Assembly (NCBI GenBank): GCA_002282015.1
Contig: NCIJ01000015.1
Span: 1-64,000 of the forward strand
DNA from: Sulfuricurvum sp. 17-40-25
Lineage (GTDB): Bacteria; Campylobacterota; Campylobacteria; Campylobacterales; Sulfurimonadaceae
Direction: 5' to 3'
Length of the DNA stretch: 64,000 nucleotides
This document shows positions 15,604-46,976 of this stretch, in pieces; positions within the stretch are counted from its first letter, which is position 1; every line of letters begins with the position of its first letter. Below the pieces are notes generated by a model, which saw nothing but the letters and a program-made list of their open reading frames with translations, did no database searches and was not told the origin of the DNA. Made by a program: the position numbers and the translations under genes.

Positions 15604-15605
15604 TG

Positions 15606-25177: not shown

Positions 25178-25375
25178 TGCAACTCTTTTTCCCTTGCCAT
25201 AGCTTGATAGGTTTCGATTTGTTCTTGGGTTTTATGCCACATATCGGTATCGGTTTTATAAAAGGAATAATACCACTCTCCGGTTAATCGGATGGTATCA
25301 GTGTAATGAAGATTGGCTTGCCATTTGAGATAAAACAGCGCTTTATCGCAGTTGAGTTTTAATAATCCTGCTTCA
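25165..25375 (-). pseudogene. rfbG: C-terminal part of frameshifted rfbG
   Basis: In a different frame from the upstream open reading frame, the sequence continues as HEAGLLKLNCDKALFYLKW... and ends ...MAREKELQWTV before TGA at 25165-25167. This is the normal C-terminal end of CDP-glucose 4,6-dehydratase (helical WKxxxxLxxT/EWYxxF pattern). Restoring one C in GCCATG at about 25376 (to GCCCATG) joins it to the upstream part, giving about 357 residues, the family's normal length. Confidence 0.75.
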
Positions 25376-26237
25376 TGGCTTTATCGGTTTCGGAAATATT
25401 CCAATACACACTCAAATCTTTTAATAGCTGAACCACGGTATGGTTTTGTTCAGCTTTCGGACCAAAATTAAATGCTTCTCCATGGAATGCTGAGTTTATA
25501 TATAATTGTGAACCTAAATGTAAATATCCACTCAAGGGTTCTAAAACATGCTGCCATGGGCGGGTAGCGTCTGGGCTTCGGATTTCTACCTTTTCACCTT
25601 TACTCCATGCAACCATGCAATCAACTACAATGCGATCTTTGGCCCAATCTCCTCCACCAATGACGTTTCCAGCTCTTCCAACTGCTAATTTAATGTTTGA
25701 TTTTGCAGATTTAAAAAAAGAATGGTAATACGATTTGATTATGAGTTCAGCGGCACCTTTACTTCCGCTATAAATATCTTTACCGCCCATTTTATCATCT
25801 TCTTTGTACCCCCACACTTGTTCTACGTTGTCATATGCTTTATCACTGGTGATGATAATAGCAGTGCACGGGTGATTCGAAGTTTTTAATGCTTCAAGAA
25901 TATTAGCAGTTCCCATCACATTTGAACTGATGGTCTCTATAGGATCGAAATACGAAGTTGAAACTATTGGCTGTGCTGCAAGATGGAATAAAAAATCTGG
26001 TTGCTCATTTGATATTATTTCTGTCATTTTTGACAAGTCTCTAATGTCTTCTTGGTAGTGTTTTATTTTAGTTTCTAATTCAAGTTTTTGGAACATGGAT
26101 GGTATTGTGGGAATGTCTTTTGCAATACCTATGACATTTGCCTCCAACTGTATAAGCCAAGTTGTCAGCCAGCTACCTTTAAAACCAGTGTGCCCGGTAA
26201 TTAGTACTTTTTTATTTTTATAAATATTCGCAAACAT
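25359..26237 (-). CDS. rfbG: CDP-glucose 4,6-dehydratase, frameshifted (N-terminal part)
   Basis: An extended-SDR enzyme converting CDP-glucose to CDP-4-keto-6-deoxyglucose, the branch point for CDP-linked deoxy sugars. N-terminal GHTGFKGSWL is the NAD motif. TSDKAYDNVEQVWGYKEDD and the catalytic Y-S-G-S-K are intact, as is GRAGNVIGGGDWAKDRI. The 292-residue frame stops about 65 residues early because of a one-base deletion; the rest of the gene follows in another frame. If real, the lesion removes the C-terminal substrate-binding lobe. It is coupled to rfbF (TAATG-type overlap at 26237). Confidence 0.88.
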   Translation of the reverse strand: MFANIYKNKKVLITGHTGFKGSWLTTWLIQLEANVIGIAKDIPTIPSMFQKLELETKIKHYQEDIRDLSKMTEIISNEQPDFLFHLAAQPIVSTSYFDPIETISSNVMGTANILEALKTSNHPCTAIIITSDKAYDNVEQVWGYKEDDKMGGKDIYSGSKGAAELIIKSYYHSFFKSAKSNIKLAVGRAGNVIGGGDWAKDRIVVDCMVAWSKGEKVEIRSPDATRPWQHVLEPLSGYLHLGSQLYINSAFHGEAFNFGPKAEQNHTVVQLLKDLSVYWNISETDKAMKQDY

Positions 26238-27016
26238 TATTTATCCCATACTTTCCAGGGGGCACTTTTATCTTGCCACATTTCATTAAGCTTGATCTTG
26301 TCTCTTAACGTATCCATTGGCATCCAGAAATCATGATGCTTATAGGTAAATATCTCACCATTTCTTGCTAGATTTTTGAGAGGGTCTTGCTCAAATACGG
26401 TAGCATCTCCATCCAAAATATAATCAAATACTTTTGCTTCACATACAAAATAACCAGCGTTTATCCAGCTTCCATCACCTTTTGGTTTTTCTTTAAATTC
26501 TTTTACTTGATTATTTTCATCAATTTCCAAGGCACCAAATCTGCCATCAGGCTGAGCTGATGTCATCGTCAAAAGCTTGCCATGAGATTTATGGAACTTG
26601 ACTAACTTTGAAATATTAATATCTGCTACTCCATCCCCATAGGTCAGCATAAATGGTTCATTGCCAATGAAGTCTTGCGCTTTTTTAATTCGTCCACCTG
26701 TCATGCTGTCTAGGCCGGTATCGAGTAGAGTAACTTTCCATGGTTCGCTTGAGTTATTATGTATTTTCATCTTATTATTGGCTAGATCTATCGTTACGTT
26801 GCTTTGGTGTAAAAAGTAATTTGCAAAGTACTCTTTTATGTAATAACCTTTATAGCCGAGGAGAATTACGAACTCATTAAATCCATAGTGGGAGTATGTT
26901 TTCATAATATGCCATAAAATAGGTTTCCCACCGATTTCTACCATGGGCTTTGGTTTAATATCGGTCTCTTCGCTGAGGCGTGTTCCAAAACCGCCGGCTA
27001 ATAATAATACTTTCAT
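26237..27016 (-). CDS. rfbF: Glucose-1-phosphate cytidylyltransferase
   Basis: 259 residues. Makes CDP-glucose from glucose-1-phosphate and CTP. The nucleotide-binding signature LLLAGGFGTRLSEET and KPKPMVEIGGKPILWHIM are exactly of the RfbF type. TYGDGVADIN and the C-terminal FWMPMDTLRDK also fit. It directly precedes rfbG and follows a transaminase gene with an ATGA overlap, forming a CDP-sugar subset within the large array. Confidence 0.95.
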   Translation of the reverse strand: MKVLLLAGGFGTRLSEETDIKPKPMVEIGGKPILWHIMKTYSHYGFNEFVILLGYKGYYIKEYFANYFLHQSNVTIDLANNKMKIHNNSSEPWKVTLLDTGLDSMTGGRIKKAQDFIGNEPFMLTYGDGVADINISKLVKFHKSHGKLLTMTSAQPDGRFGALEIDENNQVKEFKEKPKGDGSWINAGYFVCEAKVFDYILDGDATVFEQDPLKNLARNGEIFTYKHHDFWMPMDTLRDKIKLNEMWQDKSAPWKVWDK

Positions 27017-28305
27017 AGCACTCTTTCCTTGGTGATAATATCACCTGAATTTTTCAGTTCCAGTAATAGTTTTTTCAGTTTTTCAGGCTTTATTTGATTA
27101 TGAGTAGGGAGATTAAATATATGATCACATACATATTCCGATATTTGATTGGAACCTTTTATATAAAAAATTTCCTCAAACTTGTTATTTCTTCCCGAAG
27201 CTATTGTTTTGAACCAAATAGATAAATCAATTTTAGATGAAAATTTATTTTCCCAATACTCTCTATTGGTAACTAGAAAAGAATATCGCAAAAATATATT
27301 TTTTTCATTTTGAATATAGTCATCTGAATAAATTTTAACAATATTATTATAGTACATTGCAGTGTTTTTTCTATAAAGAATATTATTTTTTAAGTTTTTT
27401 ATTTGAGAAATACCAATCTTGGCAAAAATATTTGACAATCTGGCCGGATATGGATAGTTTTTTATTTGTTTTATACTTGTATAAGGTTCATCTAGAAAAT
27501 AAGTCATAATAGAAAATTTACTGAGTATGGCATTGATAAATTTACCAAGCCAATAGACGTATGGATTGAGGGTAAATATATTTATGATGAATGTGAGAGC
27601 AATTTTTTTTGTCAAAGTTGTATCTAGATAAGGGATCCTTTGATAAAAATTCTCAAAGTGGTCAGTATATTTAGAATTGTTTACACTTACTATACCACCA
27701 AGTCCTGTATTGATTACTTTACTCCGATCGGTAGAGTAGTATCCAAAATCTCCAATTGTTCCTGCAAACCGTTCATCACATTTTGCACCAAGTGCCAATG
27801 CTGCATCTTCGATTACAACTAAGTTATATTTGTGGGCTATGTCCATAATAGCATTAATATTACACATTTGCCCGAAAGTGTGCTGGGCATAAATCACTTT
27901 TGTTTTTTCGGTAATAAGTGATTCTATTTTTGTTATATCAATATTAAAATCATCTTTGCAAATGTCACAATAAATAGGCTTTGCTCCACTATAAAGAATG
28001 GCATTTGGTACAACAATACATGTATAGGACGGAATGATAATTTCATCTTCATCTTGAATATTGATTGATTTCAAGATACTGTAAAATCCCATTCTACCAC
28101 TGGCGAATGTATAGATTTTTTTAGATTCTAAGCTTTTTTTCAATAAAGTATGATAGTTTTCGACATCTTCTCCTTCAAGCATAGAGGGAGAACCAAGGGT
28201 ACTTAAAACACTTTTAACTTCTTCAATGCTATTGGTGCCACTAAATACGTTCATCTTGTAATGGGGATAAGTTGGAAGATGCTTAAATAGTTTTTTTAGG
28301 GTCAT
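27013..28305 (-). CDS. DegT/DnrJ-family aminotransferase, divergent
   Basis: 430 residues, longer than the usual 370. PSYTCIVVPNAILYSGAKPIYCDI and EDAALALGAKCDERFAGTIGDFGYYSTDRSKVINTGLGG carry the PLP fold, with lysine in DRSK. The lysine means it is a transaminase rather than RfbH (the 3-dehydrase has histidine there). The C-terminal half is AT-rich and poorly conserved, with hydrophobic stretches (FIINIFTLNPYVYWLGKFINA). It could act on the CDP-keto sugar, but an ArnB-like or unrelated role is possible. The end overlaps the rfbF start by four bases. Confidence 0.72.
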   Translation of the reverse strand: MTLKKLFKHLPTYPHYKMNVFSGTNSIEEVKSVLSTLGSPSMLEGEDVENYHTLLKKSLESKKIYTFASGRMGFYSILKSINIQDEDEIIIPSYTCIVVPNAILYSGAKPIYCDICKDDFNIDITKIESLITEKTKVIYAQHTFGQMCNINAIMDIAHKYNLVVIEDAALALGAKCDERFAGTIGDFGYYSTDRSKVINTGLGGIVSVNNSKYTDHFENFYQRIPYLDTTLTKKIALTFIINIFTLNPYVYWLGKFINAILSKFSIMTYFLDEPYTSIKQIKNYPYPARLSNIFAKIGISQIKNLKNNILYRKNTAMYYNNIVKIYSDDYIQNEKNIFLRYSFLVTNREYWENKFSSKIDLSIWFKTIASGRNNKFEEIFYIKGSNQISEYVCDHIFNLPTHNQIKPEKLKKLLLELKNSGDIITKERVL

Positions 28306-29804
28306 TTATAAAATCCAAATGTATTTCTTATATTTTCATCTGTTAAAGGTATGAAAAAATTATCTTTATAGTATTTTCTTATAGTTTGAATCTTTTGTCT
28401 ATTATTTTCCCTGTACGCGATCAATTGAGTAAAAATCCTTTCAATATCATTCGCTTCAAAAGCAATATCCCAAATTTGACCTTGTCCGTACTTAACCAAA
28501 GGATTGGCAGTCAGGTTCTCTTTACTAGCTATAACAATGACTGAAACCCCGCATGCAACTGCTTCAACTAATGTGCCTGATGCTGTTCCAATAATTAATT
28601 TTGCATTTTCAAAAAGTGTGTAAATATTTTCATCAGATACCGTAATATTTTTTGGTAGTTTTCCAAATTTTGTTATATCAACTGCCGGGTGATTTTTAAA
28701 TATTATATTGTCGAAATATGTCATGTTTTCCAACATATTCTTGGTCTCTTGTTCTATGTAGGATCCTAAAAGAATAATATTTATTTCTTTTTTAATTTCT
28801 TGAAATTCGAATATATCTTTATATCTTAAGGAGACTCCTGTGCGATAGCTTATTTTTTCTTTATGTTGTAGATAATATTTCCCATTTACTAAGACTTGAT
28901 GCGGGGCTGACAACATTTCATAGTCTAAATCATCTGCATAAGCGTTAAAATATATCTCATAGTTGAGATAAAATTGGCAGGCAATTATTTTGATTCTCTC
29001 ATTGTTTTTTCGTATTCCAAAGTTAAAACTTCTTTCAATGACTTGAAATTCACTCCAAGAATATATTCTTTCAACACTATCGAGATCAGCTATCTTTTTT
29101 CCAAAAATATATCGTGTGAAACTATCAAAAGAAGAGTTTTTTATATCTTCAATCAATGCTTGATTGAAAATTTTATCGCTGATAATATTTTCATTTTGTA
29201 ATAATCGTAAGGTTTTAAACGGATAAAGCGTAATCAAGACAAAAAGTTCAATAAAATCTTTGAGTGATAAAAATTCGTATTCAAAAACAAAGTCTCGTTG
29301 TTCTTGGTTGATGATTTTAAAAAATAAAATTAGTTTAAACGGATTTTTACCAATTTTATAGGGGCGGAGTAATATTGTATAGTCTTCGTTGTATTGCTCG
29401 AAAATCTCATATATTCCAGTTAGATAATTTTCATTAAAAGTACCACCTTCATTTGTTTTATCAATGAGTCCAAACGTATCTATGATCGTTTTTATATTAT
29501 ATTTTCTTTCTTTCTTATAGTACATTTTATATACAATGAAAGCTATAGAATACGTGCTAAATAGGTAGAAGTTTTTTGCATAAAATTTGATTGTATTAAG
29601 AAGGAATAAGAGTGTTTTTTTTTGAAGGGAGGCCTTATGCTCAAAAAATCTTTTAGGAAAACTACTTGTGTAAGGGTTTTTTATAATTGTTGGATTGACG
29701 ATAGTAAAAATGTCCCATGGAGCATTTTGTTTTACTTTAGTAATATAGGCATGAAAGAGACTCTTTTTTTGCTGATAGGATTGTTCTAGATCTTTAGGGG
29801 TCAC
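28302..29804 (-). CDS. Putative GT-B-fold transferase, surface glycan
   Basis: A 500-residue protein I cannot place firmly. The C-terminal third reads like the donor-binding half of GT-B enzymes: INIILLGSYIEQETKNML, IIFKNHPAV, then AKLIIGTASGTLVEAVACGVSVIVI. This pattern is shared by capsule and teichoic-acid type transferases. The N-terminal two thirds are aromatic and AT-rich, with hydrophobic patches that may contact the membrane. It overlaps both neighbours by four bases, so it is part of the glycan operon. Most likely an unclassified glycosyl- or glycerophosphotransferase. Confidence 0.6.
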   Translation of the reverse strand: MTPKDLEQSYQQKKSLFHAYITKVKQNAPWDIFTIVNPTIIKNPYTSSFPKRFFEHKASLQKKTLLFLLNTIKFYAKNFYLFSTYSIAFIVYKMYYKKERKYNIKTIIDTFGLIDKTNEGGTFNENYLTGIYEIFEQYNEDYTILLRPYKIGKNPFKLILFFKIINQEQRDFVFEYEFLSLKDFIELFVLITLYPFKTLRLLQNENIISDKIFNQALIEDIKNSSFDSFTRYIFGKKIADLDSVERIYSWSEFQVIERSFNFGIRKNNERIKIIACQFYLNYEIYFNAYADDLDYEMLSAPHQVLVNGKYYLQHKEKISYRTGVSLRYKDIFEFQEIKKEINIILLGSYIEQETKNMLENMTYFDNIIFKNHPAVDITKFGKLPKNITVSDENIYTLFENAKLIIGTASGTLVEAVACGVSVIVIASKENLTANPLVKYGQGQIWDIAFEANDIERIFTQLIAYRENNRQKIQTIRKYYKDNFFIPLTDENIRNTFGFYK

Positions 29805-30418
29805 GGCTGAAATCCGGAAAATGTTTCAATATAGTTCCCAAGCAATCGAAGCTTTTCATTGTTGTACCCGTAAAAATGAACTCCAGTCACTTTTGCAGCC
29901 TCGTAATCATTGATGCTGTCTCCAATCAAGATGGTGTTTTCAGGTCGGTAGTGATTATTTTCAAGTAAATCGGTGATGAGGGTGCTTTTGATAGTTGGAG
30001 ATCCGTGAATAGATTTGAAATACTGTGTTATCGCTAAATGTGAGCATAGCTCCTTTAGTTCATGGTCTTCAGCCCCAGAGACAATATGGCAATGGTAGTG
30101 AGTATAATTGTTCTTAATAAAGGTAACGGTTTCAGCAATAAGATTAGCAGGGTCAAATAGTTTTTCAGCGATAATCTCTCCAAATTGTACTGCTAACGAT
30201 TGAATCTTCTGCTCTGATGTCTTTCTTTGGAGTATGACATGAAAAAAATAGCGTATTTTTTCAAATCGTGAAACGCCACCGTTGGCATAGTGATACGTTT
30301 CGAGCATTTGAACGCTGTTTTTAGGATATTCTTGGAGGAGCTCAACGAATCCGTCGCCTTTGATTTTCATACTGTTTAGGATGACGCCGTCAAAATCAAA
30401 TAAAATATTCTTGATCAT
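29801..30418 (-). CDS. HAD-superfamily phosphatase
   Basis: 205 residues. DxD nucleophile motif ILFDFDGVILNS (D8, D10), a helical cap, then HIVSGAEDHEL (motif II), a lysine in TIKSTLI (motif III), and IGDSINDYEAA (motif IV). It should dephosphorylate a small phosphate ester. Between the cyclase-family gene and the GT-B-like gene, it could act on a phosphorylated precursor of the unusual keto-acid cassette, much as KdsC does for Kdo-8-phosphate. That parallel is inference. It overlaps both neighbours by four bases. Confidence 0.85.
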   Translation of the reverse strand: MIKNILFDFDGVILNSMKIKGDGFVELLQEYPKNSVQMLETYHYANGGVSRFEKIRYFFHVILQRKTSEQKIQSLAVQFGEIIAEKLFDPANLIAETVTFIKNNYTHYHCHIVSGAEDHELKELCSHLAITQYFKSIHGSPTIKSTLITDLLENNHYRPENTILIGDSINDYEAAKVTGVHFYGYNNEKLRLLGNYIETFSGFQP

Positions 30419-31074
30419 GCCAATGTTGCCATCACAGTACAGGGTAAACCATCACATTGCTCAATTCGAAGTGGAGCTATGATAATCGATGAAAAATTAG
30501 TATAAGCATCTACTTGAGTTAAATCCATGTCTTCCAGTAGTAAAATTGGTTTATTGGGATTTAAAAACCGTTTATGGGCTTCTTTGCCTATGTCTCTATG
30601 TTGAAAACTTGAAACTGATATTGTATCAAAGCCAAAAATACGAATATCAGGGAATTTCTTTACTATTACATCATAGATGTCGGGATGAAAACCATAGTTT
30701 CTTTCCCAATATTGTTGATCGTTTCGATAATTACATGCTCCGGTTTTTACAATTAATATCTCATAAGATTTGTCTTCAATGTTTTGCAATAGGTCAATTA
30801 GCTCATCCTTAATAATAGAAGCTTTTGTTTGGACTTCTAAAAATAAGATTTTGGTAAAAGAAAAAAAATCAGCATCATATGATTCTATCGTTTGTCCATC
30901 TTCAAAAAAATGGTACGGCATATCCAAATGGGTCCCTATATGAACAGTCGTAGTAATAGTGCTATCGTTTGCAGTTCCCCCCTGTGTAATAGAACTTTGT
31001 TTTTCTATTTTAAAAGCATTTCGATTGCCATAGGAGGGTGTCTTCGGATGAAGAGTATAGGATAAAAAAATCAT
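30415..31074 (-). CDS. Cyclase-family (kynurenine-formamidase-like) hydrolase
   Basis: 219 residues. The metal-binding signature HxGTHxDxPxH is complete: H45, H49, D51 and H55 in VHIGTHLDMPYHF. Enzymes of this family hydrolyse formamides or lactones, or cyclise polyketides. No tryptophan-degradation gene is near, and it is tightly coupled (four-base overlaps) to an NAD-epimerase and a HAD phosphatase. In this setting a lactonase or deformylase acting on a sugar-acid intermediate is plausible but unproven. Presence of this family in a glycan array is unusual. Confidence 0.8.
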   Translation of the reverse strand: MIFLSYTLHPKTPSYGNRNAFKIEKQSSITQGGTANDSTITTTVHIGTHLDMPYHFFEDGQTIESYDADFFSFTKILFLEVQTKASIIKDELIDLLQNIEDKSYEILIVKTGACNYRNDQQYWERNYGFHPDIYDVIVKKFPDIRIFGFDTISVSSFQHRDIGKEAHKRFLNPNKPILLLEDMDLTQVDAYTNFSSIIIAPLRIEQCDGLPCTVMATLA

Positions 31075-31955
31075 TCAGAATCGAGTTCGTTATGTATAGT
31101 CTGGATACATTCAAGAAGCCCTTGTCCTAAATCGATATAAGGATTTGCCACCAATTTCTTAGCAACACTTGGATGGAAGGAATAAGGGGTGATCTTATAG
31201 TGTCCCATATTGGTCTCATTGATTTGGAGGATCTCGAGAGTATTATTCATAATTTCATTAATCATAATTAATAGTTCAAGCCGTTTGAGTTTTTCGATAC
31301 CAGTAAGAATAATATGTTCATTCTCGTATTGAGGGTCTTCGATAATGTCGACAGACAGTTTGGCGGCATCAGCAGCATGGATATATTCACGTAAGTCCTC
31401 ACCATCACCTTTATACTCCAATTGTCGAGTTGTCAAGGCATCTTTGAGCAGGTTATAGATGTAATTATTATGGCTTGCCCGTTCTCCATACAGTGAACCG
31501 TAACGGATAACCGTATATTTTAGCCCATAGCGTTTGTAGTACTCTTCGGTTAATTTTTCTGAAGAGTGTTTACTAATACCATAAAATGAGCCGTCACTGC
31601 TGAGTGCATAAGCGCTACTAGCATAGATAAACCGTTCTATCCCCTCATCTTGACGGCATGCCTCCAAGATGTTAAGATTTCCCATAACATTGATGGCAAA
31701 GGTATTTATAGGCTTATGGATTGCTTCATCTAGATTAGCGATGGCAACGAAGTTATAAACAAATGAGGAGCCTTTAATGACTTCTACTACTTCTGCCATC
31801 TCCATAATATTGATATTAACAAATCGCTGCGTCGGTTGTAAATAGGAGGAGGGGCTAATGTCTGCTATGACAACTTCATAACCGCGTCGGGTAAATTCAT
31901 CTGCGACATAACTTCCTAAAAAACCGCTTCCGCCGAAAATTACTACTTTTTTCAT
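31071..31955 (-). CDS. NAD-dependent sugar epimerase/dehydratase
   Basis: 294 residues, extended SDR. N-terminal FGGSGFLGSYVADEF binds NAD, YASSAYALSS supplies the serine, and the catalytic motif Y-G-I-S-K is intact. GDGEDLREYIHAADAAK is the conserved substrate-side segment. It should epimerise, reduce or dehydrate a nucleotide sugar. Coupled by four-base overlaps to the hydroxyacid dehydrogenase upstream and the cyclase-family gene downstream, hence a member of the same cassette. Confidence 0.85.
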   Translation of the reverse strand: MKKVVIFGGSGFLGSYVADEFTRRGYEVVIADISPSSYLQPTQRFVNINIMEMAEVVEVIKGSSFVYNFVAIANLDEAIHKPINTFAINVMGNLNILEACRQDEGIERFIYASSAYALSSDGSFYGISKHSSEKLTEEYYKRYGLKYTVIRYGSLYGERASHNNYIYNLLKDALTTRQLEYKGDGEDLREYIHAADAAKLSVDIIEDPQYENEHIILTGIEKLKRLELLIMINEIMNNTLEILQINETNMGHYKITPYSFHPSVAKKLVANPYIDLGQGLLECIQTIHNELDSE

Positions 31956-32872
31956 ATGTTAAAATACTCTCTTAAATGGTGAATAGCGCTCAACCCCATA
32001 GCTTCAACCGCTTCTTTGGCATTGCCCCCGATATGAGGGGTACAGATGAGATTAGGCAGTTTTAATAATTCCATGTCTGTCGGCGGTTCCTCGATATAGG
32101 CATCAATAGCCGCTCCGGCGATAATGTAATTTTGTAACGCATATTTTAAATCATTTTCATTAATAATTCCACCTCGCGCACTATTGAGAATATAGGCACT
32201 TTTTTTCATTTGTTTAAAAACGTTTAGATTTATCATTGATAGCGTATTTGTATCCAAGGGAGTATGGATTGTCACAATATCTGAACGAGTGTATAGTTCT
32301 TCTTTGCTCACTTCAATGAGTTGATTCTGTGTATAGTAATCGTTTTGATCAATAATGTCATTGACCAGTATCGTGCATCCAAAAGGTTCTAATAATCTCA
32401 CCAGTTCTTTTCCGATATAACCAACCCCAATGATACCGACAGTTTTACCACTGAGCTGAAATCCCCCCGACTTATTCCAAATACCCTGTTTGAGTTCATT
32501 GGATGTGATATAAAGATTTCGGCAGAGCATCAGCATATATCCTAGTGTCATTTCAGCAACACTGAGACGATTTACTCCGCCGGTCCAGCCGATTTGAATA
32601 TTGCGCTTTTTACACGCATCTAAATCAATATTATTGAGTCCGACACCGTATTTGGCAATAATTTTGAGTTTTGGGAGGTGACTGAGAACTTCATCAGTAA
32701 TCTCTTCTAATCCAACGACGACTGCTTCACTATTGCTGACAAATTTGACAAAATCATCCTTGTTGAAGCGGATTCCTTCAAGATTTAATTTGACATTTTT
32801 GAAATGCGCTTTTATCTCTTTTTGGAGTAATTTATTTTTTGAAAAAGAGGGAGATGTAACTGCAATATTCAT
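31952..32872 (-). CDS. D-isomer-specific 2-hydroxyacid dehydrogenase
   Basis: About 306 residues. The NAD-binding motif GIIGVGYIGKEL, the arginine in NSARGGIINENDL, a following glutamate and the histidine in CTPHIGGNAKEA form the standard catalytic triad. The family reduces 2-keto acids or oxidises 2-hydroxy acids (SerA, glycerate and lactate dehydrogenases). In a glycan array it may reduce a keto acid made by the nearby aldolase, or supply a glycerate/lactate-type substituent. I chose ATG at 32872 (ATGA overlap with the upstream stop) over the GTG at 32884. Confidence 0.85.
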   Translation of the reverse strand: MNIAVTSPSFSKNKLLQKEIKAHFKNVKLNLEGIRFNKDDFVKFVSNSEAVVVGLEEITDEVLSHLPKLKIIAKYGVGLNNIDLDACKKRNIQIGWTGGVNRLSVAEMTLGYMLMLCRNLYITSNELKQGIWNKSGGFQLSGKTVGIIGVGYIGKELVRLLEPFGCTILVNDIIDQNDYYTQNQLIEVSKEELYTRSDIVTIHTPLDTNTLSMINLNVFKQMKKSAYILNSARGGIINENDLKYALQNYIIAGAAIDAYIEEPPTDMELLKLPNLICTPHIGGNAKEAVEAMGLSAIHHLREYFNI

Positions 32873-33606
32873 ATCTTTATGCACCTAATGATTTTTTCAA
32901 AAAATAAACTGTGCCCTTCTTTCGTATAATGAACTCCATCATATGAGAAAGACATGTCTTTGACATCTATAAGTCTACTGAAAGAAGTTGAATTTACCAT
33001 TTTTCTTATCAAAGTATTTGTATGGGCAAGTTGTGCAAAAAAGGAGGATGGTCTTTGTCGTGAGAATGTGATGCTTTCATCCATGATAGGGGTATTGATA
33101 AAATAGAGCATCTTAAATTTTTGCTCTAAAAAACGAGTAATATCATGCAAGTAACGATCTGAGTATTCTAAGTTTTTTAGAATTTCTATTGTTCCATCAC
33201 TAAGTTGATATGCATTATGGTGCTTAACTGTAGAATCATTGATATCAAATTGAGTCATTTGAATTTCAATATCGCGTATATTGCTCTCTTTTTTGGGCGT
33301 ACAATCGACAAATCCTAGATTTGTGATGAGATTGTCAAATTTAAGTTCTGGATTCAGTTGTAAGAAGTTGTCTAAAGTTGCGAAAACTGTCAAATTTTTC
33401 GGACGAGAAATTGCCAAAAATGATTTACCAGCGTTCTTTAAATGATTTATTAGTAAATATAAATGAGATTTTTCAAAATCGGGCTCGTTGATCGTCAATC
33501 CCCGTGAATCAAAAAATAAAAGATAATTGATTGAAGTAACATCAGTATAATTTTCATAAATTGTATTCTCTTTAGAAATACTTTCTTCACCAATTCCAAA
33601 AATCAT
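32869..33606 (-). CDS. SGNH/GDSL-like protein
   Basis: About 245 residues. Three blocks of the SGNH hydrolase fold can be seen: FFDSRGLTIN (block I, with GDS replaced by FDSRG), ITNLGFVDCTPK (glycine/asparagine block) and SYDGVHYTKEGHSLF (block V D-x-x-H). Members add or remove acyl groups on sugars. The first block is atypical, but the serine and the D/H pair remain. The ATG at 33606 follows the methyltransferase stop closely (a TTG at 33615 is also possible). It is part of the aldolase/cytidylyltransferase cassette. Confidence 0.6.
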   Translation of the reverse strand: MIFGIGEESISKENTIYENYTDVTSINYLLFFDSRGLTINEPDFEKSHLYLLINHLKNAGKSFLAISRPKNLTVFATLDNFLQLNPELKFDNLITNLGFVDCTPKKESNIRDIEIQMTQFDINDSTVKHHNAYQLSDGTIEILKNLEYSDRYLHDITRFLEQKFKMLYFINTPIMDESITFSRQRPSSFFAQLAHTNTLIRKMVNSTSFSRLIDVKDMSFSYDGVHYTKEGHSLFFEKIIRCIKI

Positions 33607-33608
33607 TT

Positions 33609-34457
33609 TTACCAATCTAAGTATCTTTTAGAATACGAGTTATTTTTTTTCAAGATGACTCCATAAAATCCATCAAAATCTAATTTTTGCCAAAAATATT
33701 TGGTTAGGTTAAATGGAAAACTTTTTGGATATTGAGTATATTTGTCATTGTACACTATTTCCCAGCCAGAAAATTTGAAGATAACATCCCAATCTAGTGG
33801 GGATAATTCAAAAACATGTGTATTTTCAGCTTGAAATTCACCTTCATATTGCTGTTTAACAAATTGCAAAGCAACACGACTTCTCTGTACATATGGCACA
33901 GTAATAATAAAGTATTCACATTCACTTTTCTCAGCCATATTATGCATAAAACTAATAGGATTAAATAAATGTTCTAACATTTCATAGGAAAGAAAAATAT
34001 CTGCTTTTATCCCATCAGGTTGTAAGTGCAATTCTTCTGCTTTAGACAATATCGCATTTAAGCCTTTAGCTTTTATTTTTTCTACAGCAACAGGGTCTAA
34101 ATTGACTGATAATGCTTGTACATTATGAATATTTTTCTCAGCTAAAAGTTTCTCTAAATAAATCAAATGAGTACCTGATGAGTCTCCGATATCGACAAGA
34201 TTAATACTCTCCTTCTCATCTTTTAATAACTCAATTGCTTTTAATGCAAGCGACATTTGAAAGGAATGCTGGCATCTTATTTTATTTACTAAATAAGTAT
34301 TTTTCATATCAATTTTAAATGTTGTATATTGATTCGTTAGATCAGGAACTATTTTTGAGAGTTTTTGCTTTAGTGAATATTCACCCCTCTCATGATTGCT
34401 TAATTTAAGAGAAACAGTAAGCATCTTATAAACGAAATTTTTTATCAAACTTTTCAA
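33609..34457 (-). CDS. SAM-dependent methyltransferase
   Basis: 282 residues. Motif I is VDIGDSSGTHLIYL, less canonical than GxGxG. LSYEMLEHLFNPISFMHNMAE is the usual post-motif II helix of small-molecule methyltransferases. YFIITVPYVQRSRVALQF follows. Likely methylates a glycan component or its precursor. It starts four bases inside the end of the KdsB-like gene, so the two are coupled. Confidence 0.75.
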   Translation of the reverse strand: MKSLIKNFVYKMLTVSLKLSNHERGEYSLKQKLSKIVPDLTNQYTTFKIDMKNTYLVNKIRCQHSFQMSLALKAIELLKDEKESINLVDIGDSSGTHLIYLEKLLAEKNIHNVQALSVNLDPVAVEKIKAKGLNAILSKAEELHLQPDGIKADIFLSYEMLEHLFNPISFMHNMAEKSECEYFIITVPYVQRSRVALQFVKQQYEGEFQAENTHVFELSPLDWDVIFKFSGWEIVYNDKYTQYPKSFPFNLTKYFWQKLDFDGFYGVILKKNNSYSKRYLDW

Positions 34458-35224
34458 AGGTATATTCCTTTAAATAGTACATCTTTTAGCATCATTTCTT
34501 GCACAAGCTTAAGATCTTCAATCGTATCCACTGCTTTTGTCTTATAGTTAGTTGGAATCATTTTTACTTTTTGACCATTTTCTAAAATCCGCATCATATC
34601 GACCGATTCGATGATTTCAAGAGGTGTTGGCTCCATAGCATTGTATTCCAATAAAAAATCGCGAGTGAAAGGGATAACGCAGACCTGTTTTTTCATGGGA
34701 ACTTCCAGTACCCCTTTTTTACGGCTTGGGATCGGTTCGCGTGAAAAATAGAGAGCAAACCCTTGCATATCCATGACGACCTTAACTTCATTAGGATTTT
34801 CAAAGGCTTCGATACTTTCCAAATCGGCTACCAAATTGGTAATGACCAAAGAGCTGTCTTGTATCATTGGTTGGACTGCTTCATCAATCATTTCTGGAAA
34901 TGTCAATGGTTCATCGCCTTGTACCATAACCATGATATCAACTTTGATATTTTCATTTTTTTCTATTGTTAACATCGCTTCAGCGCAACGATCCGTACAT
35001 CTCTCATGACAATCACTGGTCATAACGGCTTTGCCGCCTATGGACTCTATGTAATCGAAAATAATCTGATCGCAGGTAGCGACGTATACTTCATTTAAAA
35101 GCTTACTCATTTTAACGCGTTTATACACATGTCCAATCATCGGAATCCCGAGAATATCGGCCATAGGTTTGCCTGGAAAACGACTTGAGCCCATTCTTGC
35201 CGGGATTATTGATATTATCTTCAT
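34454..35224 (-). CDS. KdsB-like CMP-sugar-acid synthetase
   Basis: 256 residues of the cytidylyltransferase family that activates 3-deoxy-manno-octulosonate and related acids with CTP. N-terminal IIPARMGSSRFPGKPMADILG is the nucleotide loop. VMVQGDEPLTFPEMIDE has the conserved GDEP site, and a late AVDTIEDL matches KdsB. It begins immediately after the aldolase gene (no gap), and no KdsA or KdsC gene lies nearby. It may therefore activate a different 2-keto-3-deoxy acid made by that aldolase rather than Kdo for lipid A. Confidence 0.82.
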   Translation of the reverse strand: MKIISIIPARMGSSRFPGKPMADILGIPMIGHVYKRVKMSKLLNEVYVATCDQIIFDYIESIGGKAVMTSDCHERCTDRCAEAMLTIEKNENIKVDIMVMVQGDEPLTFPEMIDEAVQPMIQDSSLVITNLVADLESIEAFENPNEVKVVMDMQGFALYFSREPIPSRKKGVLEVPMKKQVCVIPFTRDFLLEYNAMEPTPLEIIESVDMMRILENGQKVKMIPTNYKTKAVDTIEDLKLVQEMMLKDVLFKGIYL

Positions 35225-35992
35225 TTATTTATCTATCTCTTGTTTTAATTTACTCATTCCACTTATTGCTGCATCCCTCATAAAGAAGTAATCTATGCCA
35301 TAAGCTAAAAAAGTGCAACCTTGATCTATTTTATCTTGCAATTTTTTTGGATCAGTATCGACTACATGAAAACCTGAAGGCAAATTGTATTCTTTGCATC
35401 TATTGAGTACTCGTGCAACTGCATTTTGCACATCAGTTCTTTCAAATTCTCCCGGGTATCCCATAGAACCGGATAAATCATATGGACCTATTATTGTTCC
35501 ATCTATTCCATCCACTTGCACTATCTCATCTATATTATTAACAGCTTCAATATGTTCTATTTGGGCTATTATGACTAGATCTTCATTAACCCATTTTTTA
35601 TATTCTTCAAACTTTGTACCATATTTTGTGGCACGATAAAGTCCTACCCCCCTTTTACCTATCGGAGGGTATTTTGCATAATTGACCGCTTGAATAGCAT
35701 CTTCTTTCGAGCATACCATAGGCACTATAATACCATCAGCTCCCATATCTAAAACTCTTTTTATAACAACTTCTTCATTTTTACTGACTCTTACAAGCGC
35801 TTTCATATTATTTGCTTGAATCGTTCGAATTAAGTTTTCAGTTGTTTCTAAATCTGTAGAAGTGTGTTCTATATCTATCACAAGCCATTCAAATCCAGCC
35901 AGTGCCATAACCTCGACACTGATAGGATTGCCAATCATTATCCAGCTTCCTATAGTGAGGGTGTTATTTTTGAGTTTATTTTTTAAAGACAC
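35225..35992 (-). CDS. HpcH/HpaI-family aldolase
   Basis: 255 residues, class II pyruvate aldolase fold. FEWLVIDIEHT, ALVRVSKNEE (arginine), GADGIIVPMV, IIAQIEHIEAVNNIDEI (metal-binding glutamate) and GTIIGPYDLSGSMG (metal-binding aspartate) match the family that joins or splits pyruvate and an aldehyde (RhmA, GarL, HpaI). In a biosynthetic setting it could build a 2-keto-3-deoxy acid. Placement directly before a KdsB-like gene is striking. The gene overlaps the flippase end by 17 bases. Confidence 0.88.
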   Translation of the reverse strand: MSLKNKLKNNTLTIGSWIMIGNPISVEVMALAGFEWLVIDIEHTSTDLETTENLIRTIQANNMKALVRVSKNEEVVIKRVLDMGADGIIVPMVCSKEDAIQAVNYAKYPPIGKRGVGLYRATKYGTKFEEYKKWVNEDLVIIAQIEHIEAVNNIDEIVQVDGIDGTIIGPYDLSGSMGYPGEFERTDVQNAVARVLNRCKEYNLPSGFHVVDTDPKKLQDKIDQGCTFLAYGIDYFFMRDAAISGMSKLKQEIDK

Positions 35993-37478
35993 CGATCAAC
36001 CTTATTGTAACAAGCTTAATTTCATTTCTGTTAGTTGCAAAAACTTTTGGAAAAATATATGCTGCTATGGTAACTAAAAATATATATACTAAAGATGAAG
36101 TGCAAAGGCGTATATAGATATTATCAGAGACTGTACTGATATGGGTTGCTATATATGCCATTACAATAAAAAAACCAATCGAATATACTTGGTGCCAGAC
36201 AAAGGGTTTCATCTTAAAATCTAAAAACTTAGCATTAAAATAGAGCTGAATATTTGTTACAATGAATTGAATGATAACCATTTTTAAGGCTAAACCTATT
36301 GCCCCAAGATTTAAAAAGTAAATAAACAATCCTGTAAAAAGAAGTCCAAAAAGCATCGAAAAAATACCTATATTTCGATAAAGTTTTGTTTGACCTGTTG
36401 CATAGAAAATTGACCCACTGAGTTGTCCGTATGTTTGATGGAGAGGGTAAAAAGCCATAATTACTAATACCCAATAGGCATCTTTAAACTTTCCATCTGT
36501 AAAAATAGCCAATATATTTTCACTTTGAAATGATAAAAATATCCCGAAGAAAGCGGCTATGCTATAAAGCATAGGAATGTATCGATAAAAATTATTGCGC
36601 ATTTGCTCTATGTTCTTCTCTTCATATGACTTGCTAAACTCTCGTGTAATAATTGGTGTCATGGCACTGGTAAATAAAAAACTAGCAGCAACGATTGAGT
36701 AAGCTAATCCATAAAATCCGCTCTGTATAGAGCCACCCATTTTTTGCAAAAGCCAAATATCCAAAAAACCGACACCTAAGCCAACTGTAGAATATACAAC
36801 CAAAGGGGAAGAAAAATGGAAAAACTCTCTACCAATTTGTTTAAATCCAAAACGAAGCGTTAGTAAATGGCGATTAAAGATATTACTTTTAACGAATAAA
36901 AGTCCAACAATGGTAATAAAAGCAACCATTGAAATGTAGTGAAAATAAAAATAATGTGTTAAATCAAAAGCGGTATAAGAGACGAAATAAAGTAATAAAC
37001 AAAGTGAAAGAATTTTATGAATGATTTTAAGCCATTCTACCGATACGGTCAAAGCATTCGCATCGGAAATTTTGATGAACATCTGAGTGATCCATGTCAG
37101 TATTCCAAAGCTAAGCCCCATATAAATATAGTTATTTGGAATACCTGGGAAAAGGGTATCCGTGTATTTTAAAGTATTAATCGAATAGATAAACAGTACG
37201 ATTAAAAAGCTTACAACTAATATGTAAAACATATAAAAAGTGATCAGTTCTTTTCTTTTTTGATTGGCGGACAATTTGGTGAAAAATGCGATAGAAGTGC
37301 CTGTATCAAGAAAACCGATTATTTGAGTATAAAATTGTTGCAGAAAACTAAAATGACCATATTGAATAGGCCCCAATGCACTTGGAACAATCATGATAAT
37401 AATGACTCCTAGCAGTCCATTGATGATGTTAGATAAAAGTTTTATCCCGTATCTTTTTTTGAGGCTATCTTCAGACAA
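35976..37478 (-). CDS. Wzx-type oligosaccharide flippase
   Basis: 500 residues with about 12-14 hydrophobic helices and the MATE/Wzx pattern (for example FSFLQQFYTQIIGFLDTG near the N-terminus). It should move a lipid-linked glycan across the inner membrane. Start is TTG at 37478, preceded by AAGGACC. No ABC-type PglK flippase and no polymerase (Wzy) are visible in the window, so Wzx may feed PglB directly. Base composition is markedly AT-rich, as for other variable glycan genes. Confidence 0.85.
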   Translation of the reverse strand: MSEDSLKKRYGIKLLSNIINGLLGVIIIMIVPSALGPIQYGHFSFLQQFYTQIIGFLDTGTSIAFFTKLSANQKRKELITFYMFYILVVSFLIVLFIYSINTLKYTDTLFPGIPNNYIYMGLSFGILTWITQMFIKISDANALTVSVEWLKIIHKILSLCLLLYFVSYTAFDLTHYFYFHYISMVAFITIVGLLFVKSNIFNRHLLTLRFGFKQIGREFFHFSSPLVVYSTVGLGVGFLDIWLLQKMGGSIQSGFYGLAYSIVAASFLFTSAMTPIITREFSKSYEEKNIEQMRNNFYRYIPMLYSIAAFFGIFLSFQSENILAIFTDGKFKDAYWVLVIMAFYPLHQTYGQLSGSIFYATGQTKLYRNIGIFSMLFGLLFTGLFIYFLNLGAIGLALKMVIIQFIVTNIQLYFNAKFLDFKMKPFVWHQVYSIGFFIVMAYIATHISTVSDNIYIRLCTSSLVYIFLVTIAAYIFPKVFATNRNEIKLVTIRLIGVFKK

Positions 37479-37529: not shown

Positions 37530-38693
37530 TCATTTATCTAATATGGATACAAGAACATTCCAAATGCTTTTTTTGTCAAAAACATCTGATTTTTCATAGA
37601 TGAGGTAGTCTAATAAATAATTTTCATATCCACTTGTATTTTCTAACTCTAGATCTATCTCCTCTTTTAGTGAGACAGTTTTATCGATGTAAATCAATTT
37701 TTTACGAGTTGAATTGGCAAAAGATTTTGCGTAAGATTCAAAAAATAAAACTTCAGTCATCATAAAAAATATGAATGGTTTATGATAAATTATTGGATAT
37801 GAAATAGCAGTTGTTGCTTCACAAATACAAAATTCACAATATTTTACAAGAGTATTTGTCTTGTACTTATAGTAAGAAAATCCGTTAAACTCTCCTTCGT
37901 TTTCTGTCAACAATAGAGAGGTAGGGTGAGCTGCTATTATAACTTTTAAATTGTATTCATTTTCTAAAAAAGTCAAAAAGTCAAAAAGCTTTTTGTAATA
38001 AGACTTTTTATCAATCGTATGCTTGATATCTAATGTAATGTAGTCTGAGGCATCAGCAACGCTAGTGTCAATATATACTATATATTTTTCAATTTCATTA
38101 TTATTTTCCATTGATGTACAGGTCGAAATAATATTTTCAATATCCATAGTATGTGCGTGGACTATTTTTGTATATTTTCCAAGCACGCCACTTTTATGTA
38201 AATATTCGACATTTTTTTTTGATCCTGCCAATAAAAGGTTTACTTTTGGGAAAAAACAACTGAATATAATTCTTTTTAACAATAGTTTAGCAATATTAGG
38301 TATATTAAAAACTGAATATGCTAAAGAGCTAAAAACTGGCGGGATAATATTCGTTGCATATTGTATTTGTTGTATTAGAGGATAACGTTGATGTATAAAT
38401 CTCATTATTTTTAATGTTTTTAAGTCGTTGGGTAGGATGGGAAATAATCTATCATTATCTGAAGTTATTAATACATCTAAAATAACTTTCAATTCATCTA
38501 AAGACTTTATTTCATGATAACCATTGAAGTAAAATGGCTTCATATCAGGTAGCTTAAGATACAGATTATCATAGTAGATGAAGGACAAGTTGAGTAAATA
38601 GACTTCAATATTAGATTTTAAAATCTGTTTTAATCCAAAACGATCATAATCCCTTTCTGTGAAGATATGAGAATATAGATATATTATTTTCAT
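37530..38693 (-). CDS. Unknown glycan-locus protein, possible GT-B transferase
   Basis: 387 residues, AT-rich, no clear family. VNLLLAGSKKNVEYLHKSGVLGKYTKIVHAH resembles the interdomain region of GT-B glycosyltransferases. The late CEATTAISYPIIYHKPFIFF (small residues followed by hydrophobics) recalls the donor site of polysialyl/capsule transferases. It is flanked by an SDR and the flippase, with a four-base overlap on the SDR side and a 51-base gap before the flippase. A glycosyltransferase is the best guess. Confidence 0.5.
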   Translation of the reverse strand: MKIIYLYSHIFTERDYDRFGLKQILKSNIEVYLLNLSFIYYDNLYLKLPDMKPFYFNGYHEIKSLDELKVILDVLITSDNDRLFPILPNDLKTLKIMRFIHQRYPLIQQIQYATNIIPPVFSSLAYSVFNIPNIAKLLLKRIIFSCFFPKVNLLLAGSKKNVEYLHKSGVLGKYTKIVHAHTMDIENIISTCTSMENNNEIEKYIVYIDTSVADASDYITLDIKHTIDKKSYYKKLFDFLTFLENEYNLKVIIAAHPTSLLLTENEGEFNGFSYYKYKTNTLVKYCEFCICEATTAISYPIIYHKPFIFFMMTEVLFFESYAKSFANSTRKKLIYIDKTVSLKEEIDLELENTSGYENYLLDYLIYEKSDVFDKKSIWNVLVSILDK

Positions 38694-39460
38694 AAACTAA
38701 ACCCATCATCGACAATAATATTTTGGCCATTCACATATTTGGACATATCTGAAAGAAGATAGACAAGCGTTCCGCGTAAATCTTCTGCGTCTAGCATTCC
38801 TTTTGAGGAAGCCAGCTTGTTGTATTTATCTAAAAAATCTTGCGGTTGATTATTAAGAATTCCGCCAGGGCTTATTGCGTTAACTCGAATATTCATCTCT
38901 TTGAAATATTTTGCCATATATTTGGTCAAATGGATCAAGGCTGATTTGATTGCGGCATATTCTATGGGCATACTCATAGTTGTCCCCTCATATATTTCAA
39001 ATCTTGGGGCTATTACTCCATAAATTGAGGAGATATTGATGATATTTCCATAGCCTTGTTTTTGGAAGTAGTGTGCTATTTGTTGGCTTGCTAAAAAATA
39101 ACCGCCAAGATTGAGATTAAGATTTTCACAGAAATCTTCATATTCGACATCAAAAAAGTTTCTGCCATAGCGTTTGTTCCGGGGATATGCATTATTGACA
39201 AAGGCATCAATACGCCCATATTTATTATCCAAGTGGACAATCATGTGCTGTAATGATTCTTTTGATGTGATGTCTAATAATACAAAATCAATATTTTTTG
39301 TATTTAACTCTTTTGATAACTTATCTTTGACCTGGTTACCTATACCTTCATTAATATCAGCGATAATAGCGATACCGTTTTGTGAGACTATGGCCTGTAC
39401 AAACTCTTTACCGATGAGTCCTGCTCCACCGGTAATGATAATGACTTTATTTTCTAACAT
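38690..39460 (-). CDS. SDR oxidoreductase (PtmA-like)
   Basis: 256 residues, classical SDR. N-terminal ITGGAGLIGKEFVQAI binds NAD(P), VNNAYPRN follows, SSIYG gives the serine, and the active site is Y-A-A-I-K. GGILNNQP and the C-terminal NGQNIIVDDGFSL complete the fold. It resembles PtmA, a short-chain dehydrogenase of flagellin-modification loci that carry legionaminic acid genes. Its ATG overlaps the stop of the aminomutase-like gene by one base. Confidence 0.83.
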   Translation of the reverse strand: MLENKVIIITGGAGLIGKEFVQAIVSQNGIAIIADINEGIGNQVKDKLSKELNTKNIDFVLLDITSKESLQHMIVHLDNKYGRIDAFVNNAYPRNKRYGRNFFDVEYEDFCENLNLNLGGYFLASQQIAHYFQKQGYGNIINISSIYGVIAPRFEIYEGTTMSMPIEYAAIKSALIHLTKYMAKYFKEMNIRVNAISPGGILNNQPQDFLDKYNKLASSKGMLDAEDLRGTLVYLLSDMSKYVNGQNIIVDDGFSL

Positions 39461-40767
39461 TAGTTGTATTTCCTAAATACAGGTTTTATCGGATTACCAA
39501 TTAAAAGTTTTTCTACTTTATTGGTCTCGATTGCATATTGTAATACGTTTAATGCTTTTTCAAAGGCTTCTATTGTTTGAGACACTTCGCTTTCCCTATG
39601 GGAGAAAGATGGAACAATCCCTTGCATTAAAATTCCTTGCTTAATCATCTCTTGTTGAAAAAGTGTTCTCATATAATTGTCTTTGAAATAAAAATAGGGG
39701 CGACAATCAATACCTGAGATATTTACAAATTCAGTCAGTTCAAATTGCCTGGCAAGGGCATTGAAAGCATCTTTTATTTTTTTGCCAGTATCCCATATAT
39801 GTTTAGTTACGGCATAATTATTTTGATTCAGAATTTCAATGGTTTTTTGGGCAGCTCTTAGATGATGGGGCTCACCACCATAGGTTGTTGATAATAAAAA
39901 AACTCTCTCTTTGTTGTGTTCCAGCCCACCTAACTCCATGATTTCTTTTTTCCCGACGAGTGCAGAAATGGAATAGCCATTCGCCATTGCTTTTCCAAAC
40001 GTGGACAAATCAGGTGTGACTCCGTAAAGATATTGTGCACCTTTGGGATGAAATCTAAATCCACTAACAACTTCATCAAAAATTAATACGATATGCTCTC
40101 GTGTACATAGGTCTCTAATAGCTTGAAGATATCCTTCATTTGGTTCTTCTGTAGCAGCAGGCTCGATAATCAAGCATGCTATTCCCTTCTCTTTATTAAG
40201 TTCTATGACGTTTTTGAGATTTTCGATATCGTTATATTTAAAATGTTTTGTATTGCTTTTTGTTTCTTCTGTGACACCACTGCTAATATCAGTATCTCCA
40301 ATAAACCAATCATCGATACTAAAAAAGGGTTGGTCTATGCATCGTAAGACTACTTCTTTGCCGGTATAGGCACGGGAAAGCTTGACTGCTGAAGTTGTTG
40401 CATTTGAACCATTTTTGGCGAATTTAACCATTTGTGCAGATGGAATCTGCATGCTTATTTGCTCTGCTAATTCTGCCTCTATAAAGGAGGGTCTGATAAA
40501 ATTCACACCATTGTCTAACTCTTTTTTTATCACTTCAACGATAGGATCGTATGCATGGCCGAGGATTACCGAAGTAAGGCCCATGCCCCAGTCAACAAAT
40601 TCATTACCGTCAACATCCCAGATTCTTGCACCTTTGCCTTTTACAATAGAATGCGGGCTAAGTTGCGGAAATTGATCATCTCCTTTACTGTACGTGTGCG
40701 CACCACCTGGGATTAGTGAAGCGGCTTTTTTTCTTAATTCATTTGATTTTGCAAAATTTGTTATCAT
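39460..40767 (-). CDS. Class III aminotransferase (glutamate-1-semialdehyde aminomutase-like)
   Basis: 435 residues of the HemL-like fold-type I PLP family. IPGGAHTYSKG, FAKNGSNATTSAVKLSRAYTG, IFDEVVSGFR and TFGKAMANGYSISALVG (PLP lysine) are conserved. It is unlikely to be the tetrapyrrole enzyme because it is embedded in a nonulosonic-acid-type module and coupled by four bases to the fused nucleotidyltransferase. HemL-like transaminases recur in surface glycan clusters with undetermined substrates. Confidence 0.82.
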   Translation of the reverse strand: MITNFAKSNELRKKAASLIPGGAHTYSKGDDQFPQLSPHSIVKGKGARIWDVDGNEFVDWGMGLTSVILGHAYDPIVEVIKKELDNGVNFIRPSFIEAELAEQISMQIPSAQMVKFAKNGSNATTSAVKLSRAYTGKEVVLRCIDQPFFSIDDWFIGDTDISSGVTEETKSNTKHFKYNDIENLKNVIELNKEKGIACLIIEPAATEEPNEGYLQAIRDLCTREHIVLIFDEVVSGFRFHPKGAQYLYGVTPDLSTFGKAMANGYSISALVGKKEIMELGGLEHNKERVFLLSTTYGGEPHHLRAAQKTIEILNQNNYAVTKHIWDTGKKIKDAFNALARQFELTEFVNISGIDCRPYFYFKDNYMRTLFQQEMIKQGILMQGIVPSFSHRESEVSQTIEAFEKALNVLQYAIETNKVEKLLIGNPIKPVFRKYN

Positions 40768-43357: not shown

Positions 43358-43358
43358 G

Positions 43359-44420: not shown

Positions 44421-44436
44421 AAACAAGCCTTTTTAT

Positions 44437-46975: not shown

Positions 46976-46976
46976 A

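Follow-up and report, generated by a model that had tools for sequence, protein, structure and literature searches.

The minus strand of a 64,000-nucleotide stretch of DNA from Sulfuricurvum sp. 17-40-25 (contig NCIJ01000015.1, positions 1 to 64,000; hereafter the window) carries a gene cassette that looks like an apparently undescribed route to an activated acidic sugar for cell-surface glycans. The cassette sits in a surface-glycan locus with a Wzx flippase and glycosyltransferases, and a first-pass annotation had described it as eight coupled open reading frames (ORFs) at 29801-35992. All eight ORFs were confirmed on this strand, and domain searches support the family names given to them, weakly in the case of the methyltransferase and with the exception of the SGNH-like protein. 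Translational coupling runs across the cassette, with most junctions being 4-base overlaps and the TAA stop codon of the aldolase gene directly abutting the ATG of the KdsB-like gene. The ends originally drawn proved too narrow, as the unit extends into a wzx gene that overlaps the aldolase gene at one end and into the gene of a predicted GT-B-fold protein (u28) that overlaps the HAD phosphatase gene at the other. The genes of the extended unit are the following:

35976..37478, minus strand: Wzx-like flippase, sharing 17 bases with the aldolase gene
35225..35992, minus strand: HpcH/HpaI class II aldolase (ALD), 255 amino acids (aa), HpcH_HpaI (PF03328)
34454..35224, minus strand: KdsB-like cytidylyltransferase, 256 aa, CTP_transf_3/KdsB (PF02348)
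33609..34457, minus strand: S-adenosylmethionine (SAM) methyltransferase-like protein (MT), optional, PF13489 as a weak match below cut-off
32869..33615, minus strand: SGNH/GDSL-fold hydrolase-like protein, optional, from predicted fold and motifs
31952..32884, minus strand: D-2-hydroxyacid dehydrogenase of the phosphoglycerate-dehydrogenase type (HADH), core, PF02826/PF00389
31071..31955, minus strand: extended short-chain dehydrogenase/epimerase (SDR31), NAD epimerase/dehydratase (PF01370)
30415..31074, minus strand: metal hydrolase, kynurenine-formamidase-like (CYC), Cyclase PF04199
29801..30418, minus strand: HAD-family phosphatase (HAD), HAD_2
28302..29804, minus strand: u28, predicted GT-B-fold protein and candidate glycosyltransferase, from a structure model

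Both outer genes are conserved alongside the others and belong to the cassette unit: Wzx is kept upstream of ALD in the loci of KdsB type, at 47-61% identity in most, and u28 is conserved with the same cassette type at 51-64% identity in most. The structure model of u28 matches the general GT-B fold, with a TM score of about 0.3-0.4 by query length, and does not resolve its donor class. The SGNH-like protein of the window has no Pfam match, and its label is backed by a predicted fold, for which the six best PDB matches comprise five hydrolases of the GDSL/PAF-acetylhydrolase type and one putative hydrolase (BT3161), together with DSR and DxxH motifs that are invariant or nearly so across four homologues.

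The aldolase and its two partner enzymes

ALD has the metal- and pyruvate-binding residues of HpcH/HpaI class II aldolases, and residues H43, R68, Q144, E146, G169, P170 and D172 are invariant in seven orthologues aligned with GarL (1dxe). It shares fold family and catalytic residues with the catabolic enzymes GarL, HpaI and RhmA, and on these grounds it might be degradative itself, with its neighbourhood an accident. We regard this as highly improbable, as ALD forms a separate clade in a biosynthetic context and scores far below the cut-off of every degradative equivalog model (HpaI 203.5 against 368.8 bits, GarL 198.7 against 406.75, RhmA 165.3 against 441); neither a sugar-acid transporter nor a dehydratase was noticed next to it in the window, and its biosynthetic neighbours are conserved across phyla.

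Orthologues of ALD are scattered, occurring in seven genomes among 150 relatives. In four of the six ALD-bearing relatives other than the source genome the order Wzx, ALD, KdsB-like enzyme, a variable interval, HADH, SDR31, CYC, HAD and u28 is kept, and in the remaining two a PseF/NeuA-type enzyme of 224-229 aa, which also uses cytidine triphosphate (CTP), immediately precedes ALD. This NeuA-like protein scores 91.1 bits with the PseF model, whose cut-off is 205.7. Across an evenly drawn sample of 397 Campylobacterota genomes, the ALD clade (67% identity or more) was present in 11, with an adjoining CTP enzyme of the KdsB-like clade in six and of the NeuA-like clade in five; neither of these two clades was found without ALD in the sample at the cut-offs used. 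By our own arithmetic, in which relatedness is ignored, the chance of the KdsB-like clade being nested with ALD in this way is roughly 1e-10.

The wide scan of 84,980 species genomes, in which ALD was the sole seed, returned 64 loci, 51 of them in the ALD clade. A CTP enzyme is present in 47 of these 51 (19 KdsB-like, 28 NeuA-like, none with both) at a median gap of 36 bases from ALD, and the other four are all cut by contig ends; among the 13 aldolase loci outside the clade, none has a CTP enzyme. The clade reaches at least ten phyla (Campylobacterota, Thermodesulfobacteriota, Bacteroidota, Deferribacterota, Bdellovibrionota, Ignavibacteriota, Actinomycetota, Myxococcota, Pseudomonadota and Omnitrophota), and its carriers are mostly metagenome-assembled genomes, with isolates that include Maribacter flavus, Mucilaginibacter phenanthrenivorans and Kiloniella laminariae. 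The first-pass annotation had named a failure of the gene set to recur in other genomes as grounds for dropping its reading, and that is not what was seen: the pairing of ALD with a cytidylyltransferase is frequent in these phyla, in the company of HADH, an SDR protein, a cyclase and HAD. No relatives were found in viral contigs, and phages gave nothing beyond a partial match of 36% in two records of Staphylococcus phages; on plasmids, the matches listed were all relatives with identities of about 43% or less.

On a tree of 54 ALD sequences, aldolases with KdsB-like and NeuA-like partners interleave, and the KdsB label needs six changes, at least four of which are forced by well-supported branches. 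This interleaving implies that the CTP enzyme was swapped several times beside the same aldolase, and such repeated swapping, the strongest of the sequence evidence, argues that ALD and the CTP enzyme probably share one pathway. The two CTP enzymes are unrelated in the sense of being different PF02348 subfamilies with low mutual identity; their folds are not different.

Altered sugar-domain residues in the KdsB-like enzyme

The KdsB-like protein of the window passes the cut-offs of two curated kdsB models (PRK13368, 315.8 bits with a cut-off of 255; TIGR00466, 159.3 with a cut-off of 155.2), and it could on this basis be a second synthetase of CMP-Kdo (cytidine monophosphate (CMP)-activated 3-deoxy-D-manno-oct-2-ulosonic acid), as KpsU is for capsules, with no relation to the aldolase beside it. 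In E. coli numbering, the CTP and metal residues R10, R15, K19, R78, Q98, D100 and D235 are unchanged in 22 cassette copies. Residues H181, Y185, E210 and Q211, which presumably touch the sugar in the KdsB/KpsU structures, are replaced in all 22 (H181Q, Y185I, E210D and Q211M), even in alphaproteobacterial copies only about 45% identical to that of the window, and 12 of 12 canonical KdsB proteins have H, Y and E at positions 181, 185 and 210. These are residues of the sugar domain; in CMP-Kdo synthetases, Kdo is bound by the C-terminal domain (PMC3149649). The cassette copies also form one side of a branch with an SH-aLRT (approximate likelihood-ratio test) support of 98, in a quick tree with several long branches.

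Another KdsB is present in all 22 cassette genomes tested, including a canonical one elsewhere in the genome of the window, and KdsA scored above cut-off in eight of nine tested genomes outside the immediate relatives. As all 22 genomes retain another KdsB, the cassette appears to be an addition to Kdo synthesis and, judged by its sequence, the KdsB-like enzyme is not the Kdo enzyme of the genome. A second CMP-Kdo synthetase was rejected on the sugar-domain residues and the exclusive linkage to ALD, to which can be added that NeuA-like enzymes substitute for the KdsB-like one; we hold it to be very improbable. The absence of KdsA and KdsC pointed out in the first-pass annotation is correct for the cassette itself, where no KdsA and no match to the kdsC model was found; the genome does have a single KdsA, on another contig.

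Core genes and the proposed pathway

Gene content was counted over 35 loci with good flanks by similarity searches, so that diverged copies are missed. HADH occurs in 34 of these loci and HAD in 25. SDR31 (25 of 35) and a Gfo/Idh/MocA-type protein (8 of 35) never occur together, and the same holds for CYC (24 of 35) and a lactonase of the 6-phosphogluconolactonase type (PGL; 3 of 35), with neither CYC nor PGL detected in eight. In loci L060 and L074 the 6-phosphogluconolactonase-family protein occupies the very slot of CYC, between SDR31 and HAD. ALD, a CTP enzyme, HADH, one sugar dehydrogenase (SDR31 or Gfo/Idh) and the hydrolase slot (CYC or PGL) belong to the core of what is a set of about six linked genes. 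The first-pass annotation had missed the NeuA-like alternative and the lactonase in the cyclase slot. Wzx and u28 were detected in nine and eight of the 35 loci, and MT and the SGNH-like protein in two each. The latter two were also found elsewhere (MT in L032 and L046, the SGNH-like protein in L016/L023, L027 and L032), and their variable presence led us to reject them as core steps.

Catalytic residues of the four remaining enzymes are preserved throughout. HADH keeps R237, E266 and H284, SDR31 keeps S113/S114, Y125 and K129, and HAD keeps D8, D10, K144, D167 and D171. CYC keeps the metal motif H45-x-G-T-H49-x-D51-x-P-x-H55 and scores 67.1 bits against the kynurenine formamidase (KynB) equivalog cut-off of 223.05, placing it in the same family but not as an equivalog. 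HAD matches models of the phosphoglycolate phosphatase/beta-phosphoglucomutase type, and the kdsC model is not among its NCBIfam matches.

We consider it probable that the product of the cassette is a CMP-activated ulosonic acid (a 2-keto sugar acid) distinct from Kdo and destined for a surface glycan. ALD, as a metal-dependent pyruvate-type aldolase, would condense pyruvate (or hydroxypyruvate) with a sugar aldehyde, forming the C3-C4 bond of a 2-keto acid; HAD would remove phosphate from the product or its precursor, and the KdsB-like enzyme would place CMP from CTP onto the anomeric hydroxyl. SDR31, CYC and HADH would make up an oxidative arm leading from sugar to lactone, sugar acid and 2-keto acid, and this arm might prepare one aldol partner or tailor the sugar. 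Transfer of the CMP-sugar, possibly by u28, would precede flipping of the glycan by the linked Wzx. The synthetic direction of ALD, the idea that its product accepts CMP, and the parts assigned to the dehydrogenases are our inferences. A CMP-activated keto acid built by a pyruvate aldolase without a phosphoenolpyruvate (PEP) synthase, as originally suggested, is the best-supported reading, while its 'keto-deoxy' nature is not established: a 3-deoxy product is likely rather than certain, because HpcH-family aldolases take hydroxypyruvate besides pyruvate (PMC7610986), which would lead to a non-deoxy ulosonic acid.

The exchange of CYC and PGL in the same slot points to CYC as a lactone-opening enzyme, and in turn to SDR31 or Gfo/Idh as the source of the lactone; HADH could then oxidise the 2-hydroxy acid that results from lactone opening. 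It is conceivable, if rather unlikely, that this arm makes the ulosonic acid by itself and that ALD, instead of building the chain from a pool of aldehydes, only cleaves or exchanges the three-carbon end (hydroxypyruvate for pyruvate). An aldose phosphate would be oxidised by SDR31 (or Gfo/Idh) to give a lactone, which CYC (or 6-phosphogluconolactonase) would open, HADH would oxidise C2 to give a 2-ketoaldonate, and removal of phosphate by HAD and activation by the CTP enzyme would follow. The mutually exclusive pairs are what would be expected of enzymes that form and open a lactone, the lactonase position in L060 and L074 fits, and HADH, present in 34 of the 35 loci, is a member of the 2-hydroxyacid dehydrogenase family with its R-E-H residues intact. 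ALD is, however, no less obligate than the CTP enzyme, and this sits badly with a side role; the closest solved relatives of SDR31 are nucleotide-sugar epimerases/dehydratases, and the lactone-opening enzyme goes undetected in eight of 35 loci.

Reduction of 2-keto acids is the usual activity in the HADH family, and bacterial glycans can carry dihydroxy-acyl groups. ALD and HADH might accordingly make a 2,4-dihydroxy acid, by aldol addition and then reduction, as an acyl or ether decoration, leaving the CTP enzyme to serve a different sugar acid, and a separate NeuB operon does lie in the window. We find this improbable given the tie of ALD to a CTP enzyme in 47 of 51 loci and through two unrelated CTP families; NeuB is near only eight of the 35 well-covered loci, and in the cassette of the window we noted neither an acyl-activating enzyme nor an acyl carrier. 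That the cassette's CTP enzyme serves the neighbouring NeuB operon was likewise rejected, since this operon has a CTP enzyme of its own and most well-covered cassettes lack a nearby NeuB.

In a second form of the cassette (type II; L055, L062-L064, L067, L069, L084 and L091), SDR31 and HAD give way to Gfo/Idh, an SIS protein resembling GmhA, an AroB-like phospholyase and a classical SDR. The AroB-related protein of L084 matches the 'cyclizing phospholyase' model TIGR04425 at 455 bits, with a cut-off of 400. With its ties to the same aldolase and CTP enzymes, the type II branch, in which the phospholyase, the SIS isomerase and Gfo/Idh replace the pair of SDR and phosphatase, possibly makes an acidic sugar that is unusual or carbocyclic and has yet to be found in nature. 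More generally, and with the type II branch included, we raise as a tentative and on balance doubtful proposal that CMP-ulosonic acids have a third general route beside those of KdsA and NeuB, one in which a class II pyruvate/hydroxypyruvate aldolase forms the sugar acid and the activating enzyme can be either KdsB-like or NeuA-like.

Several points weigh against the reading as a CMP-ulosonic acid pathway. The KdsB-like protein of the window passes the curated kdsB cut-offs, and the clade loci share descent and transfer, so that their counts are not independent. HADH acting as a reductase on the ALD product would destroy the keto group that CMP transfer needs, and it must therefore act elsewhere or in the oxidising direction. 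The SDR31 and HAD cassettes may make different sugars from those with Gfo/Idh, SIS isomerase, AroB-like phospholyase and SDR, and the window cassette has no YhcH. L043 and L044 retain Wzx, ALD and the KdsB-like gene, but the sequence available for them revealed no HADH, SDR31, CYC or HAD.

In those two loci a different set of genes follows, including proteins of about 304, 625 and 365 aa. The interval between the KdsB-like gene and HADH appears as a variable decoration slot, occupied in L018 (12166-13068), L019, L029 and L038 by a radical SAM/SPASM protein together with an SDR of the classical type.

Known systems, surroundings and significance

The synthases behind the best-known CMP-activated acidic sugars (Kdo and the sialic, pseudaminic and legionaminic acids) are PEP-dependent. 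The proposed pathway resembles that of Kdo (KdsD, KdsA, KdsC, KdsB) in its use of an aldose phosphate, a three-carbon addition, a phosphatase and CTP activation, with the CTP enzyme of the window a relative of KdsB. It differs in having an HpcH/HpaI aldolase instead of the PEP-dependent KdsA, a HAD protein without a KdsC model match, two further dehydrogenases and a hydrolase, and altered sugar-domain residues in its KdsB, in a genome that retains its own KdsA and KdsB. With the nonulosonic acid pathways (NeuB/PseI/LegI with NeuA/PseF/LegF) it shares CMP-activated 2-keto acid sugars in surface-glycan loci, the PseF/NeuA-like character of its alternative CTP enzyme and, near the locus of one cassette genome, a GT42-family transferase; it has an aldolase and no NeuB, however, the NeuB of the window belonging to the neighbouring operon. 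NanA and the YhcH anomerase of sialic acid catabolism similarly pair an aldolase with a DUF386 anomerase in handling a 2-keto-3-deoxy sugar acid, but NanA is an unrelated, degradative class I enzyme, whereas the cassette context is biosynthetic and the window cassette lacks DUF386. About ten NeuA-type cassettes do include YhcH/DUF386 genes, a point in favour of the proposed pathway. YhcH is an N-acetylneuraminic acid anomerase that provides an aldolase with substrate in open-chain form (PMC8141875).

Genome G278 has a GT42 sialyltransferase-family protein and an MptE-like protein upstream of its cassette, the former encoded about 6 kb away, and an MptE-like protein is also near the cassette of G222. 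GT42 transferases as a general cassette feature are unsupported, being found in one of 21 cassette genomes. The ALD gene of G278 is interrupted (L092:7417-8176), its match lying in two pieces in different frames, with the cassette otherwise intact.

The earlier statement that no described pathway has this gene set agrees with our searches, in which no description of the cassette pathway was found in the open-access literature covered. The nearest precedent is a table of genes differing between clades that names BN865_07080-07150 of Campylobacter coli 76339 as hypothetical, aldolase, phosphoglycerate dehydrogenase, epimerase, cyclase, conserved hypothetical 22, HAD and sialyltransferase (PMC3928612). 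The order of families is the same as in L092 up to HAD, and in the passages covered no pathway or product was found for these genes.

Upstream of the window cassette, the NeuB/LegC-type nonulosonic acid operon occupies 37530-49363 and includes a single ORF (40764-42479) that joins a CMP-sugar-acid synthetase-like domain (CTP_transf_3) to a sugar-1-phosphate nucleotidyltransferase domain (NTP_transferase). Downstream are a CDP-glucose synthase, a 4,6-dehydratase, glycosyltransferases and an STT3/PglB oligosaccharyltransferase. The stretch directly after u28 (25359-28305) encodes the CDP-glucose synthase (TIGR02623, 409 bits), which also comes after u28 in L015, L016 and L096, a CDP-glucose 4,6-dehydratase of only 292 aa (the TIGR02622 model has 352 positions) and a 430-aa DegT-like protein whose best aminotransferase match covers the first 220 residues. 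The STT3/PglB-type oligosaccharyltransferase and a PglF-like dehydratase (13792-17717) end the glycan locus, and these genes suggest protein N-glycosylation in the source organism.

The cassette offers defined enzyme pairs that are testable in vitro, and the recurrent replacement of one CTP enzyme by an unrelated one next to the same aldolase amounts to a useful natural experiment in substrate specificity. If the proposed pathway is true, it would account for many glycan-locus genes that are now annotated as degradation or amino-acid enzymes, and a widespread aldolase-based counterpart to the PEP-dependent routes would add a class of surface sugar acids to bacteria, among them a human-associated Campylobacter.

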